Positions 8,109 through 14,278 of a stretch of DNA of 64,000 nt are shown one piece after another. The notes beneath the pieces are model-generated. The model saw only the letters and a list, made by a program, of their open reading frames with translations. It was not told where the DNA came from and did no database searches. A program made the translations under genes and the position numbers. The stretch comes from Myxococcaceae bacterium (GTDB lineage Bacteria; Myxococcota; Myxococcia; Myxococcales; Myxococcaceae). The stretch covers positions 1-64,000 of the forward strand of contig JAEUJQ010000044.1 in the NCBI GenBank assembly GCA_016793095.1, given 5' to 3'. Position 1 is the first letter of the stretch. Every line of letters starts with the position of its first letter.

Positions 8109-9548
8109 TCAGCGGCGGCGGCGCAGGCCTGCCAGCGCGATCAGCGACAGGAGCGAGACGCCGTCGATGCTCGCGCAGCCCGTCTTCGCGACCGGCGCGG
8201 CGATGGTGGCCTTGCCGATGAGGATCTGCGGCTTCGGGGGCTCCTGGCAGAAGCGGAACCCGTTCCACCCGTTCGAGCACGAGTAGCCGTCGGGGCAGTC
8301 ACCCTGGTTGCGGCAGGTGAGCTGGCAGGTGGACTCGACCTGGCTGGGCCCGGTGCACACGGTGTCCATGCCACAGAAGTTGGTGCCGATGCGGCACGGC
8401 TCTCCCGCCGAGACGAGGGGGAGCTGCTTCTTCAAGCAGAAGCCGCTGAGGCACTCGAACCCCGCTGTGCAGTCGGTGGGCTGGAGGCAGGCGCGGGTGC
8501 AGTAGGGCTGCAGGTTCTGCGGGTCATTCCGGCACTCCCGGTTCACGCACTGGGTGGCCATCGTGCAGTCGCTGCCCTCCCGCACACAGTCGGGATCCGG
8601 GTCAGCGCAGGTGGTGGTCGCGCAGAGGCCGTTCGGGCCGCAGTCCGGGCAGTCCGGGTCTACGCCGCCCTGGAGCCCCAGGCACACCGAGCTGCAGATG
8701 TTGTCCTTCGCGCACACGCAGTCGAAGTCCGGCGTGTTGCAGTTGGTCGCGCAGCGCCCATCGCGATCGCAGGACGGCGCCTCGTACATGCTGAGGTACA
8801 TCTGCACGAACGGGGTGAACGCGTCGACCCGCGTATCGGCTCCGTAGGTGCAGTTCTGCGACACGGTGAAGCTGTGAACACCGACCTGCCGCTCGACGCC
8901 ATCGGGGAACGTGTAGAACGTGGGGCCGCCCGAGTCGCCCTGACAGATGCCCTTCGAGGTGCTGTCGCCCATGAAGATGAGCTGCGGGGTCAGCTGGGAG
9001 ACCGTGAGGCCGACCTGCCGTCGGGTGCCGCTGCCCGACCCTGGCGAGGTGTTGCCGTAGCCCACGGCGCGAATCGGCCGGCCCTGGGTGCCGTTCATCG
9101 TCTGGTTGTTCCACGGCTTGGGGTTCACGTTCGGGGGCGCGCGCTCGAGCAGGATGATGGCGATGTCGCTGCGCAGCGACTGGCTGTTCGGATCCCAGTT
9201 GGGGTGCACGTTCCAGCGGAGGGCCCGGTGGGTGTTCACCCCGAACTGGATCTGCGTGTCGCTCGGGGCGTTGTGGGCGAGCACCGAGCGCGCCGAGTCC
9301 ACGCAGTGCGCGGCGGTGAGCAGCGTGCGCGAGCCGATGAGCGTCGCCGAGCAGATGCCCATCTGCCCCGACGCCTCCGTCATGATGAGCTGGAAGACGT
9401 TGCTGTCGTTCGGCGCGAGCGTGCCACCGACGATGGCGCCTCGCTGGCGGGCGATGGGCGGCAGCTCCGAGGTGTCGCCCTCGAGGGTGGGGCCGCAGGC
9501 GGCGGCAGAGAGCAGGACGACGAGAGCGGCGAGGCGACGAACGATCAT
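8109..9548 (-). CDS. Trypsin-like serine protease lipoprotein with Cys-rich stalk and sorting tail
   Basis: The 479-residue precursor has a signal peptide with lipobox Cys18 (LSAAAC) and a chymotrypsin-fold S1 domain. The mature start motif IVGG is at 39-42 and the catalytic residues are His81 (TAAHC), Asp128 (SDIAII) and Ser206 (GDSGGP). A long Cys-rich region (about 250-430, C-x(n)-DC repeats) follows, and the protein ends in GCAS, a hydrophobic helix and RRRR. That tail resembles MYXO-CTERM, a sorting signal for myxobacterial surface proteins. The IVGG motif sits two residues after an Arg, which suggests zymogen processing. It is the second gene of a pair; its ATG overlaps the stop of the first (ATGA). 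Confidence 0.9.
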   Translation of the reverse strand: MIVRRLAALVVLLSAAACGPTLEGDTSELPPIARQRGAIVGGTLAPNDSNVFQLIMTEASGQMGICSATLIGSRTLLTAAHCVDSARSVLAHNAPSDTQIQFGVNTHRALRWNVHPNWDPNSQSLRSDIAIILLERAPPNVNPKPWNNQTMNGTQGRPIRAVGYGNTSPGSGSGTRRQVGLTVSQLTPQLIFMGDSTSKGICQGDSGGPTFYTFPDGVERQVGVHSFTVSQNCTYGADTRVDAFTPFVQMYLSMYEAPSCDRDGRCATNCNTPDFDCVCAKDNICSSVCLGLQGGVDPDCPDCGPNGLCATTTCADPDPDCVREGSDCTMATQCVNRECRNDPQNLQPYCTRACLQPTDCTAGFECLSGFCLKKQLPLVSAGEPCRIGTNFCGMDTVCTGPSQVESTCQLTCRNQGDCPDGYSCSNGWNGFRFCQEPPKPQILIGKATIAAPVAKTGCASIDGVSLLSLIALAGLRRRR

Positions 9549-10996
9549 GGGGTGTTCCGGCGGCGGCGAAGCAGCGGGAGCATCAGCACGAGTGCGCCCA
9601 GCAGTCCACCGGGAGCCGCGCTGCAGCCCTTCGCCACCACGCCCAGCTCACTCGACACCCCGGGGACGCGCCGGGGCATGAAGTCCACGTTGAAGGGCCG
9701 GCAGTAGCGCCCACCCATCGATCCGCCCTCGCACACCGAGCGGTCGTCGCAGTCCGCCGCGCTCGTGCAGGGCAGCACGCAGCGGGTGACGCCGTTCAGC
9801 GGCCCGTTGCAGGTGCTGGTGACGCAGAAGTCGAGCAGCGCCGAGCACGACTCGAGCAGAACGCGCTCGGGTCGGCGGGGAATGCGGCAGGCGCCGGCCT
9901 CGCACTGCATCGTGGCTGGACAGTCGCTGGTCTGCGCGCACGTCCGGCTGCAGTACGTGTCGCGGTTCTGGACATCGTTCACGCACTGTCTGCCGCGACA
10001 CTGGGTGGCCGCGCTGCAGAGCCCGCCTTCGGCGACACAGTCGGTGTCAGCGCGGGGACACTCGGCCTGCGCACAGACGCCATCAGCAGCGCAGTTCGCG
10101 GGACAGTCGCGGTCGCGCGCGAAGTCCTGGCACTCCGCCGAGCACTGGCCGTCGTTCGAGGCACAGGCGCAGTCCTGATCGATCACCGCGCAGCCCGGCT
10201 TGCAGAGGCCGTCGTAGTCGCAGGTGGGCGTCTCCCAGGCGGCCTTGGTCATGCGGATCCAGTCCACGACGGTGTCCACGCGCATGTCCACGCCGAAATT
10301 GGTGCAGCCCTGATCGCCATAGCTGACGACGCCGATCAGCTTCTCTCCCGTCGTTCCCGGCAGCACCATGAACCCGGGGCCACCCGAGTCGCCCTGACAG
10401 GTCTGCTTGCCCTGCGCGCCCGACTCGAAGCTCGCTGCCATCACCCGGCGCAGGGGAGTCGTCACCTCACGCTTGGTCCCTCCGCCGGACTGGGTCGCGC
10501 CATCGGTCACCCCGAAGCCGGTGTGCCGCACGGGCGTCCCGAGCATCGCGTCGGTGAGCGGCCGCTCGTTGATCTCCAGCAGCGGGACATCGGTGACCGC
10601 CCGCTCCAGCTGCAGCAGACCGAAGTCGTTGCGCTGGCCCGAGTATTGGGGGTGCGCGAACTGGCCCACCACCCGCATCGTCGAGGTGGGGTTCGAGGCG
10701 ACGGTGCCGAAGGCGACGGAGTAGGGCGCGTTGCGGCCCTGCGCGTAGATGCAGTGCGCCGCCGTCAGCACCGTCCTGGGGCCGATGAGCGAGCCGGTGC
10801 AGTAGCTCGAGAAGCGACCGCCGAAGCCCACCACGAGCGCGACCACGGCGGGATCTCCCATCGCGACCGTACCGCCGATGATCTCCTGCTGCGTCGCGGC
10901 CGTCGTCATCTTCTCTTGCGACGAGAGCTCGACCTGGCCGCAGGCGCTCCCGAGGACGGCGCCGGCCAACACCGTGGAGAAGACGTATGACTTCAT
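9545..10996 (-). CDS. Trypsin-like serine protease lipoprotein, paralog of the next gene
   Basis: The 483-residue precursor has the same architecture as its partner. The signal peptide has lipobox Cys19 (LGSAC). The S1 domain has IIGG at 39-42, His81, Asp124 and Ser204, and a Cys-rich stalk follows. The end is GCSAAPGG, a hydrophobic helix and RRRR. The ATG at 10996 follows ACGGGAG; upstream in-frame codons are not needed. The stop overlaps the partner's start by 4 nt, so the two proteases are probably made in similar amounts. They look like a tandem duplication that has diverged in the protease surface loops. Likely role: secreted or surface proteolysis, for example in predation; substrate unknown. 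Confidence 0.9.
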   Translation of the reverse strand: MKSYVFSTVLAGAVLGSACGQVELSSQEKMTTAATQQEIIGGTVAMGDPAVVALVVGFGGRFSSYCTGSLIGPRTVLTAAHCIYAQGRNAPYSVAFGTVASNPTSTMRVVGQFAHPQYSGQRNDFGLLQLERAVTDVPLLEINERPLTDAMLGTPVRHTGFGVTDGATQSGGGTKREVTTPLRRVMAASFESGAQGKQTCQGDSGGPGFMVLPGTTGEKLIGVVSYGDQGCTNFGVDMRVDTVVDWIRMTKAAWETPTCDYDGLCKPGCAVIDQDCACASNDGQCSAECQDFARDRDCPANCAADGVCAQAECPRADTDCVAEGGLCSAATQCRGRQCVNDVQNRDTYCSRTCAQTSDCPATMQCEAGACRIPRRPERVLLESCSALLDFCVTSTCNGPLNGVTRCVLPCTSAADCDDRSVCEGGSMGGRYCRPFNVDFMPRRVPGVSSELGVVAKGCSAAPGGLLGALVLMLPLLRRRRNTP

Positions 10997-11017
10997 GTGG
11001 CTCCCGTTGCTGCATCG

Positions 11018-11042
11018 CGTTGTCGGAAGGGACCCGACAACG
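11018..11042. promoter_or_regulatory. Perfect 9-bp inverted repeat upstream of the protease operon
   Basis: CGTTGTCGG (11018-11026) and CCGACAACG (11034-11042) form a perfect inverted repeat with a 7-nt spacer, 22 nt before the protease start. It could be an operator for a dimeric regulator or a hairpin in the mRNA leader. The rest of the 226-bp divergent region (10997-11222) holds no gene; I could not fix a promoter with good spacing. Confidence 0.4.
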
Positions 11043-11222
11043 ACTGTGACGGTGCGCGCCGTGAGCAAGGTGTGTGCCCCGGTCTTTTCGTTCGTCGATC
11101 CATTGGGTTACGCAGGCGCCTGGAAGCGCAGCCGGACAGCGACGCCTTGATCTGCCTCGGATTGGGACAGTTCATACTCCACTGATCTGTCAGGCTTCTT
11201 GTGTTGTAGCCTCCCGGCCCTC

Positions 11223-12494
11223 GTGACGACGCTTCTCAAAGGGGCCACGCTCGTCGAGATCGAGCCGCCATCGGTGGAGCAGGCTGATCTCCGAATCGAC
11301 AAGGGCCGGATCGTGGCACGCGCGACGGCGCTCGAGCCGCTGCCGAACGAGGAGATCACGGATCTCTCCGGGCGGGTGGTGATGCCCGGGCTCGTGAGCG
11401 CCCACCACCACCTGCACGCAGGGCTGCTCCGGGGGCTCGCGAGGGAGGCGACGGGGTTTCAGGCCGAGCAGGCGCTGCTGGAGCGGCTCGAGAACGCGCT
11501 CAGTCACGACGACATTCAAGCCGCGGCGGCGGTGGGGGGCCTCGAGGGGCTCTGCTCGGGCACGACGACGGTCTTCGCGCTGCACGCCTCGCCGCGGGTG
11601 GTGCCGGGCTCGCTCGCGCGGGTTGCGCACGGGCTGAATGACACGGGCATTCGGGCGGTGGTGGCGTACGAGGTGTCGGATCGGGCCGGCGTGGTGAGCC
11701 GCGAAGAGGCGCTCGACGAGCTCGCGGGGTTCATCAGCCGGGCCCGCGGGCGCTTCCGTGGCGCGATTGGCCTCTCGCACCTCGCGCAGACGCCCAACGA
11801 GGCGCTGGCCGCGGTGAAGGCGATCTCGGGCGCGACCAGGGCCCTCACGCTGGTGAACGTCGCCGAAGATCCAGCCGAGGAGCAACGCAGCCTCGAGGCG
11901 TTTGGCGCGCCGCCGCTCGATCGGCTGTTCGAGAAGGAGCTCATCAGCGAGGCGACGGCGATCTCACAGGCCGTGCACCTCTCCTGGCCACAGTTGTCCG
12001 ACCTGATGGCGCGCGGCGCGTGGCTCGTGCACTCCTCACGCAGCAACATGAACACGCAGACCGGCCTGGCGACGCCCGCGAAGTTCGGCGTTCGGGCCTG
12101 CCTGGGGACGGACGTGATGAGCCTCGACACGCTTGCCGAGGCCCAGGTCGCGTCGCTCCGCAGCCGCGACGCCAGCCAGCCCATCGACATCTTGCGCTTC
12201 GTGGCGAACGGCCACCGGCTCGCGTCGCAGGCCTTCGGCGTCACCATCGGTCCACTGCGGGAGGACGCGGTGGCGGACCTCGTCGTCCTCGACTACCAGC
12301 CGCCGACGCCCCTCTCCTCCGAGTCGCTGCCTTCCCACCTCCTTCACGGCATGGCCTCGCAGCATGTCGAGTCGGTGATGGTGGACGGCATGTGGCGCCT
12401 GTGGAAGCGCAAGCCCCTCTCCGTTGACGTGGCCGAGCTGGCCCGCCACAGCCGCGAGGCCGCCTCCGCCGTCTGGTCGCGCCTCGGTACGTGA
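11223..12494 (+). CDS. SsnA-like amidohydrolase (metal-dependent deaminase superfamily)
   Basis: The product has about 423 residues and the composite beta-sandwich plus TIM-barrel layout of amidohydrolases. The first metal site is in PGLVSAHHHLHAG, followed by a His in ALHASP, a His in AVHLSW, and Asp in GTDVMSLD. The motif LVHSSRSNMNTQTG with the GTD downstream most resembles SsnA, a family seen beside selenium-dependent molybdenum hydroxylase genes in enterics and clostridia; the substrate is unknown. Chlorohydrolase/guanine-deaminase-like members are an alternative. The GTG at 11223 is my choice; a TTG at 11199 is also open and neither has a good ribosome site. The selenocysteine peroxiredoxin follows after 40 bp on the same strand. 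Confidence 0.75.
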   Translation: MTTLLKGATLVEIEPPSVEQADLRIDKGRIVARATALEPLPNEEITDLSGRVVMPGLVSAHHHLHAGLLRGLAREATGFQAEQALLERLENALSHDDIQAAAAVGGLEGLCSGTTTVFALHASPRVVPGSLARVAHGLNDTGIRAVVAYEVSDRAGVVSREEALDELAGFISRARGRFRGAIGLSHLAQTPNEALAAVKAISGATRALTLVNVAEDPAEEQRSLEAFGAPPLDRLFEKELISEATAISQAVHLSWPQLSDLMARGAWLVHSSRSNMNTQTGLATPAKFGVRACLGTDVMSLDTLAEAQVASLRSRDASQPIDILRFVANGHRLASQAFGVTIGPLREDAVADLVVLDYQPPTPLSSESLPSHLLHGMASQHVESVMVDGMWRLWKRKPLSVDVAELARHSREAASAVWSRLGT

Positions 12495-12534
12495 AGCTGG
12501 CGGCGCGGGGGCGCCCGCGTTAACTCCCGCCACG

Positions 12535-13071
12535 ATGGTTGCTCTTCCTCTGCTGGTGCTCATGGCCACGCCCTCGATTGGAGACCTCGTCGCCGACTTC
12601 ACGGTGAAGGACGTGGACGGGAACGAGCTGACGCTGTCGAAGCTGGTGGACCGTGGGCCAGTCGTGGTCGCCTTCTACCCGAAGGCCTTCACCGGCGGTT
12701 GAACGCGCGAGCTCTCCGCGTACCGGGACCGGTATGCCGACATCACGAAGAGCCAGGGAACGGTGCTCGCCGTGTCGGGTGACGACGCAGTGACCGCGAA
12801 GAAGTTCCGCGAGAGCCTGAAGGCGCCGTACCCGTTCGTGAGCGACGAGCGCGGCGTGCTGATGAAGCAGTTCGACGTGAAGTACCCGCTGGTCACGGTG
12901 GCGAGGCGGGTCACGTTCGTGATCGGGCAGGGCAGGAAGGTGCTCGCGGTGCAGGAAGGCGCCGACGCCCTCGATCCTTCCGGTGCGGTGACCGCTTGCA
13001 GCCTCGAGAAACCGAAGGCACTTCAGCTCCTGCTCGGGACAGACGGCGGTTCGCCCTCGTCCGGCCCTTGA
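12535..13071 (+). CDS. Selenocysteine-containing peroxiredoxin (UGA recoded at codon 56)
   Basis: Read through the in-frame TGA at 12700-12702, the gene encodes a 178-residue thioredoxin-fold peroxiredoxin of the AhpC/TSA-BCP type. The universal active-site pattern P-x3-T-x2-C appears as Pro49-Thr53-Sec56 (FYPKAFTGG then U-TREL), and Arg124/Arg125 (TVARRVTFVIG) supplies the conserved Arg. Every residue around the TGA fits the family, and the frame stays open and homologous after it to the TGA stop at 13071. Sec would be the peroxidatic residue; Cys155 is the only Cys, so the resolving partner may be external thiol. The start is ATG at 12535, giving a short hydrophobic leader; an in-frame ATG at 12562 would give a cytosolic form. 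A standard caller would report two fragments. Confidence 0.88.
12718..12737 (+). promoter_or_regulatory. Bacterial SECIS-like stem-loop for the recoded UGA
   Basis: GCGTACC (12718-12724) pairs with GGTATGC (12731-12737), six Watson-Crick pairs and one G-U. The loop is GGGACC (12725-12730), or GGAC if one more C-G... pair closes. The loop begins 22-23 nt after the TGA and starts with G. Bacterial SECIS elements are short stems inside the coding region with a small G-containing apical loop about 16-37 nt after the UGA, recognised by SelB, so position and loop fit. Folding energy was not computed. Confidence 0.72.
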
Positions 13072-13183: not shown

Positions 13184-14278
13184 ATGAACCTCAAGGCGCT
13201 CTCTCTCGGGATCGCGATCGGCTTCGCGCTCGCCGTCGTGCCCTCATGCGGAACCCCGGCTGGAAACTGTGGCCCCAACAACTGCACGGGCTGCTGTAAC
13301 GCCGGCGCCTGCGTCACACCTGACAAGCTGACGGACGCGGCGTGCGGGAGCTCAGGCAACGCGTGCTCGAACTGCACGGCCATGAGCCAGGTCTGCAACA
13401 TGGGCACGAAGTCGTGCTTCGGGGGCAGCACCGGTGGTGGGAGCGCAGCAGGTGGCTCGGCTGGCGGGGGCAGCACGGCCGGCGGCAGCACCGCTGGCGG
13501 GAGCACGGGTGGTGGCAGCACGGGTGGCGGGAGCACCGCAGGAGGCAGCGCAGGCGGTTCGGTTGTTCGCCAGCCCTGCGACCTCATCACCAACCCCACC
13601 TGTCCGACCGGCGCAGAGTGTGTGCTGAACGACATCAACGGCTCCGCGGGCACCTGCATCCCGGGCGCGTGCAGCCTGCTCGCGCAGGACTGCGCCGGCA
13701 ACACGAAGTGCATGATCATTCCCGTCGGTGACGGTGGCGTCGAGCGCGTGTGCACGCCGTTCACGCTTGGAGACGCAGGGACCGCCGACAACGGCCAGTG
13801 TCAGCTCTCCGTGCCCGACTCGTGTCAGCGCGGAGCCCAGTGTGTTGGCTTCCAGGGCGGCGGCACGCCCACCTGCCGTCGGTTCTGCGGTCCCCTCAAC
13901 ATGTGCTCGCCGGGCTCTGACTGCGACTTCGGCGTCAGGTTCGCCGCCGTGCAGAACGGCACGAGTGAGCTCCACCTCGTCTGCTCGCCCGCTACGCCCT
14001 GCAACCCGTTCGATCAGACCCCCTGCGCCGCGACGGACGCCTGCCAGCTTGGCACGAGCGGCACCCCCGTCTGCCGTCCGGCCGGCATGGTGATGAACGG
14101 TGGAACGTGCACGAACATGGCGTTCTGCGCTCGCGGCCTCCAGTGCGTCGCGGCGGCGGCCGGTGGTATGTCCGGCGTGTGCCGCGCGTTCTGCAACGTG
14201 GACGGTGGCATGCCGTCGTGCGCGGCGGGGATGTGCCAGAACAACATGGGAACGGGTCTGGGCACCTGCTCGATGTGA
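13184..14278 (+). CDS. Cys-rich lipoprotein with Gly/Ser/Thr-rich stalk
   Basis: The 364-residue secreted lipoprotein has lipobox Cys22 (VVPSC). It contains a short Cys-rich module (about 25-80, with CTGCC and a CSNC pattern), then a Gly/Ser/Thr linker of about 40 residues made of GGS(T/A) repeats. A larger Cys-rich domain with paired C-x(n)-C motifs runs to the end (SM*). I know no enzyme function; the layout is that of a myxobacterial surface protein on a flexible stalk. The ATG at 13184 follows AGGAGA by 4 nt. A terminator-like hairpin lies just behind the stop, so it is probably monocistronic. Confidence 0.8.
   Translation: MNLKALSLGIAIGFALAVVPSCGTPAGNCGPNNCTGCCNAGACVTPDKLTDAACGSSGNACSNCTAMSQVCNMGTKSCFGGSTGGGSAAGGSAGGGSTAGGSTAGGSTGGGSTGGGSTAGGSAGGSVVRQPCDLITNPTCPTGAECVLNDINGSAGTCIPGACSLLAQDCAGNTKCMIIPVGDGGVERVCTPFTLGDAGTADNGQCQLSVPDSCQRGAQCVGFQGGGTPTCRRFCGPLNMCSPGSDCDFGVRFAAVQNGTSELHLVCSPATPCNPFDQTPCAATDACQLGTSGTPVCRPAGMVMNGGTCTNMAFCARGLQCVAAAAGGMSGVCRAFCNVDGGMPSCAAGMCQNNMGTGLGTCSM

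Follow-up and report, generated by a model that had tools for sequence, protein, structure and literature searches.

Sec-containing peroxiredoxins (Prx) have been catalogued in two surveys. The first, from 2006, counts 12 and lists three of them for the myxobacterium Anaeromyxobacter dehalogenans (PMC1794560), which also appears in the Prx alignment of PMC1914089, and the 2016 survey counts 91 in 78 organisms (PMC5029168). The first-pass annotation of the locus studied here suggested a first Sec peroxiredoxin in myxobacteria; this does not hold, since the A. dehalogenans proteins had been listed in that 2006 survey. The passages of PMC1794560 consulted contain no description of the subfamily reported here, its neighbour gene or its spread in relatives of the source genome. 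A literature search of incomplete coverage returned no description of this subfamily, and no relevant paper joining selenoproteins with myxobacteria or Myxococcota by those words.

The window, which is the whole 64,000-nt stretch of DNA that was analysed (positions 1 to 64,000 of contig JAEUJQ010000044.1 from a Myxococcaceae bacterium), encodes a protein which, like those listed for A. dehalogenans in PMC1794560, is a myxobacterial TxxU peroxiredoxin. It is about 46% identical to the Anaeromyxobacter-type proteins compared. The family from which these were taken (f5), which we infer to be the Anaeromyxobacteraceae, includes a 5.0 Mb single-contig genome (G045) and its relatives, whose orthologues also carry the TGA at codon 56 and share the hairpin. 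As in PrxU of Eubacterium acidaminophilum (NF040737, peroxi_PrxU), the peroxidatic residue within the AhpC/TSA fold would be Sec, but the window protein scores only 35.7 bits against the NF040737 cut-off of 270, and therefore belongs to a subfamily other than PrxU. The PrxQ/BCP thiol peroxidases (NF006960, NF053650; PDB 5epf, 3drn, 2ywn) are nearest in sequence and fold, the match to 5epf having an E-value of 6e-21. However, the protein does not reach the equivalog cut-off of either model (56.5 of 140 bits for NF006960, 52.6 of 260 for NF053650), and instead of a Cys at +5, where it has Ser61, it has a C-terminal Cys155. The typical 2-Cys AhpC enzymes (TIGR03137) have a C-terminal resolving Cys, and Cys155 is invariant here, in a tail without a confident model; the score against this family is 45.7 of 272 bits. 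No NCBIfam model covers the window protein above its cut-off. What appears to be new is a widespread, uncatalogued subfamily, whose members have a short hydrophobic N-terminus, lack the resolving Cys of the PrxQ type and invariably carry the C-terminal Cys155.

The gene and its in-frame TGA

The coding sequence (12535..13071, + strand) runs from an ATG at 12535 to a terminal TGA at 13069-13071 and comprises 178 residues including the presumed Sec56. Its frame has a single interruption, the TGA at 12700..12702 (+), which is codon 56 and falls on the peroxidatic position of the PxxxTxxC/U motif, within FYPKAFTGG-U-TRELSAYRDRY. The Pfam model AhpC-TSA (PF00578) matches residues 15-136 of the readthrough protein, across the TGA, with 103.3 bits (cut-off 26). 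The initial reading of the TGA as replacing the peroxidatic Cys, of Pro49, Thr53 and residue 56 as the motif, and of a frame carrying on through the peroxiredoxin fold was therefore sound. The weight it had put on an Arg pair at 124/125 was half right, because only R125 (codon at 12907..12909, +), the conserved active-site Arg of peroxiredoxins, is kept in the homologues (36/36 core and 14/14 other, that is 50/50), and R124 is variable. The protein starts with a short hydrophobic stretch (MVALPLLVLMATP, 12535..12573, +), whose character is conserved in the orthologues whose N-termini were compared.

Sec and Cys forms among homologues

Homologues were searched in 60 genomes and then in 179 genomes of the phylum. 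The 50 distinct sequences retained, from related Myxococcota, consist of 36 core members (23 Sec, 13 Cys) and 14 others, and their codon 56 is TGA in 34, TGC in 15 and TGT in one, with no other codon found. The alternation is exactly at the TGA codon, which bears out the claim that the position of the TGA is beyond chance (34/50 TGA against 16/50 TGC or TGT). Twenty loci fetched later show the same two states (12 TGA, 8 TGC/TGT). Across the phylum, 112 of the 179 genomes have a match at 1e-20, about 54 of these with an in-frame TGA, the position of which is confirmed for the fetched loci only. Archangiaceae and Archangium metagenome-assembled genomes (L025-L029) are among the named records that have the TGA form. 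Two genomes carry a Sec and a Cys paralogue each (L049 and L078 in G012, L051 and L077 in G032). A TGA at the peroxidatic codon is also found in eight PrxQ-like peroxiredoxins from other Myxococcota families (L068, L069, L070, L072, L073, L074, L075 and L079), all of which are without Cys155 and have a different downstream sequence.

When the window gene was compared with its closest Sec relatives, dN/dS was 0.15-0.35 upstream of the TGA, 0.27-0.49 downstream of it and 0.22-0.45 beyond the SECIS element. The ratio stays low after the TGA, which shows that the part encoded downstream is under constraint as a protein.

A SECIS-type hairpin following the TGA

A bacterial SECIS (bSECIS) hairpin, GCGUACCG-GGAC-CGGUAUGC, lies at 12718..12737 (+), with an 8-bp stem and the GGAC apical loop at 12726-12729. 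PMC13188914 states four limits for such elements (bSECISearch model), and the hairpin lies within all of them: a 4-nt loop with G first (GG), an 8-bp stem, a spacing of 23 nt after the UGA and a fold energy of -11.3 kcal/mol for the 20-mer. Relative to the bacterial SECIS consensus, apical loop, leading G, stem length, spacing and energy are thus ordinary, and the element of the window subfamily is unusually invariant in sequence. Across 22 sequences, 98.9% of the pair cells are paired, but no pair has changed on both sides; covariation gives no support because the hairpin is too conserved in sequence.

The pairing itself has to be read against the conserved peptide AYRDRYA, as random synonymous coding of this peptide gives 8/8 pairs in 14% of cases and at least 6 pairs in most. 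Pairing alone is therefore weak evidence, and it is the choice of codons and the contrast between Sec and Cys forms that carry the argument. Codons +6 to +12 are spelled near-identically in the 23 core Sec homologues, with GCG in 23/23, CGG at +8 in 23/23 and TAT in 15/23, the usage of CGG being 0.29 and that of the rare TAT 0.05. CGG at codon +8 is found in all 23 Sec forms versus 3/13 Cys forms (Fisher 1.1e-6, with kinship ignored). Judged by these codons, constraint acts on the hairpin in the Sec forms, and among the Cys forms the hairpin decays.

A SECIS covariance model searched against the source genome finds the window site with E=1.7e-15, the next best site having 0.09. All 12 held-out Sec forms score between 60 and 77 bits; in 7 of them the hairpin is a variant whose loop has six bases and whose stem is shorter. 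Among the Cys forms, L099 and L101 reach 65 bits, inside the Sec range, which is what a recent Sec-to-Cys replacement would leave.

Selenocysteine machinery and the decoding of UGA

The source genome, an assembly of 8.8 Mb in 93 contigs with a completeness of 98.65%, contains the selA, selB, selC and selD on which the first-pass annotation had made its reading depend. Its one tRNA-Sec scores 70.3 bits, over the Rfam gathering score, and is also found by ARAGORN, with the anticodon UCA; selB (324 bits), selA (559 bits) and selD (380 bits) are all above curated cut-offs. selA is present in 21 of the 22 genomes with a Sec orthologue, the source genome included. The exception, G030, has the TGA form with no selA or tRNA-Sec found, in an assembly that is 87% complete and in 900 contigs. 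No tRNA-Sec was detected in G014, G018 and G051, where assemblies are fragmented or the filters were strict.

No selenoprotein other than the peroxiredoxin was identified in the source genome by looking at FdhA and SelD and by the SECIS-model search, which gave no further convincing candidate; this model need not detect an unlike SECIS. SelD is a Cys form, and the FdhA match has no in-frame stop, so a Sec formate dehydrogenase was rejected as the reason for the machinery. Two genomes of the same genus (G002 and G004) have selA and tRNA-Sec and no close orthologue of the Sec56 peroxiredoxin, and the genus therefore probably has other selenoproteins.

In draft genomes, an in-frame stop often comes from a Cys codon that has mutated, leaving a pseudogene, or has been miscalled as TGA. 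For the window gene there is virtually no chance of either, since the same TGA is conserved in dozens of independent genomes; purifying selection downstream of it and the presence of both the SECIS element and the sel genes argue in the same direction. The sequencing error against which the locus was to be checked is excluded by the same conservation. With a suppressor tRNA or a reassigned code, the UGA could also be read as another residue such as Cys or Trp, and UGA-to-Cys would fit the alignment as well because homologues have Cys at position 56. However, all eight window genes checked end in TGA as an ordinary stop, by which global UGA reassignment is excluded. A tRNA-Sec with a UCA anticodon is present together with SelA, SelB and SelD, and the hairpin is constrained in one set of forms and decayed in the other, all of which makes such decoding very improbable. 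UGA-encoded Sec is almost certainly what the gene specifies, a reading supported by position, conservation, machinery and SECIS, each of them established from sequence. In the mechanism we propose, SelB would bind the hairpin at 12718-12737 and, together with Sec-tRNA(Sec), read the UGA at 12700-12702 as Sec56, and under selenium scarcity translation would stop at this codon and leave an inactive 55-residue fragment.

Genomic surroundings

Upstream of the peroxiredoxin lies a conserved neighbour in the same orientation, an SsnA-like amidohydrolase (11199..12494, +, start codon uncertain; NCBIfam Se_ssnA, TIGR03314), which adjoins the peroxiredoxin in genomes with Sec and with Cys forms. Its product scores 261.9 bits, below the TIGR03314 cut-off of 455.5. 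yqeB is absent from the source genome, and the SsnA-like gene is therefore no evidence for a selenium-dependent molybdenum hydroxylase; this link was rejected also on account of the score and of the gene's occurrence beside Cys forms.

The stretch before the start codon (12505-12534) shows no evident Shine-Dalgarno sequence, and a scan of the region gave no sigma-70 consensus or promoter and no terminator match. A possible -10-like TA, tentatively assigned, is found at 12521..12522 (+), 14 nt before the ATG. In the orthologues, a TA stands at -12/-13 in 20/36, and within -18..-8 in 27/36 versus 7/36 within -30..-20. This clustering hints, tentatively, at a nearly leaderless mRNA.

The region 8109-11068 (minus strand) encodes, side by side, two trypsin-like proteases whose tails are Cys-rich; in several related genomes, their relatives adjoin the SsnA-like gene and the peroxiredoxin. 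Downstream of the peroxiredoxin, 13184-14278 encodes a Cys-rich protein with Gly/Ser repeats, which is conserved in the nearest relatives.

Cys155 and the resolving step

In many PrxQ enzymes the resolving Cys follows the peroxidatic Cys by five residues, and in typical 2-Cys Prx the resolving Cys is C-terminal. In the core homologues the +5 position is occupied by T, S, Q, K, E or A. The sole other Cys of the window protein is Cys155 (codon at 12997..12999, +), which is present in 36/36 core homologues, whether they have Sec or Cys at position 56, and in 20/20 of the loci fetched later. An AlphaFold model, built from six sequences only, shows a sound core peroxiredoxin fold, with pLDDT below 50 for residues 143-178, which include Cys155. 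The best PDB match of Foldseek is Bcp1 (3drn, E=4.4e-12), and its further matches include Mycobacterium AhpE and other enzymes of the 1-Cys type.

From family knowledge, a Sec56 selenolate activated by Thr53, Pro49 and Arg125 would reduce the hydroperoxide. Cys155 would then most likely resolve the resulting selenenic acid by forming a selenenylsulfide, and the enzyme would be recycled by a thioredoxin-like reductant, both of these steps being proposals. The main rival to this role of Cys155 concerns the resolving step only: the enzyme could work as a 1-Cys type, with an external thiol directly resolving the selenenic acid and Cys155 serving as a structural, oligomer, membrane or metal contact. 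The structural matches to AhpE and other 1-Cys Prx, the position of Cys155 in a tail without a confident model and the eight PrxQ-like Sec paralogues that lack it all favour this alternative. Against it are the invariance of Cys155 in the core group, the lack of any further Cys in the window protein and the distance of 99 residues between Cys155 and residue 56, roughly where typical 2-Cys enzymes have theirs. Given these arguments, a 1-Cys mechanism is possible but rather unlikely, and Cys155 is probably, with some reservation, the residue that resolves the Sec56 selenenic acid.

Probable replacement of Sec by Cys and its implications

On the midpoint-rooted protein tree, the Sec label requires 8 changes, 7 of which are forced by well supported branches. 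Within the core group, Sec forms occur in the deeper branches; they are also present among several PrxQ-like paralogues of other families, and the Cys forms are scattered among them. Eight Cys orthologues (L044, L045, L046, L077, L078, L099, L101 and L110) retain 7-8 hairpin pairs, which are likely to be fossil SECIS elements left after Sec-to-Cys replacement. The simplest reading would be an ancestral Sec enzyme that was repeatedly replaced by Cys; because the tree is midpoint rooted, this direction is only inferred. An overall picture, in which this Myxococcota subfamily would be distinct and ancestrally a selenoprotein with a Sec56-Cys155 selenenylsulfide cycle, would be exported or held at the membrane through its short hydrophobic N-terminus, would have a nearly leaderless mRNA and would have changed from Sec to Cys several times, is speculative and doubtful as a whole.

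Sec peroxiredoxins are already a known kind of enzyme, to which the window gene adds a well-supported member. Gene callers probably truncate it or call it a pseudogene, and NCBIfam has no model for it, so that in many genomes of myxobacteria this conserved antioxidant selenoprotein easily goes unnoticed. The Sec and Cys versions found in close relatives form a natural series for studying what makes a single enzyme retain or lose its Sec.
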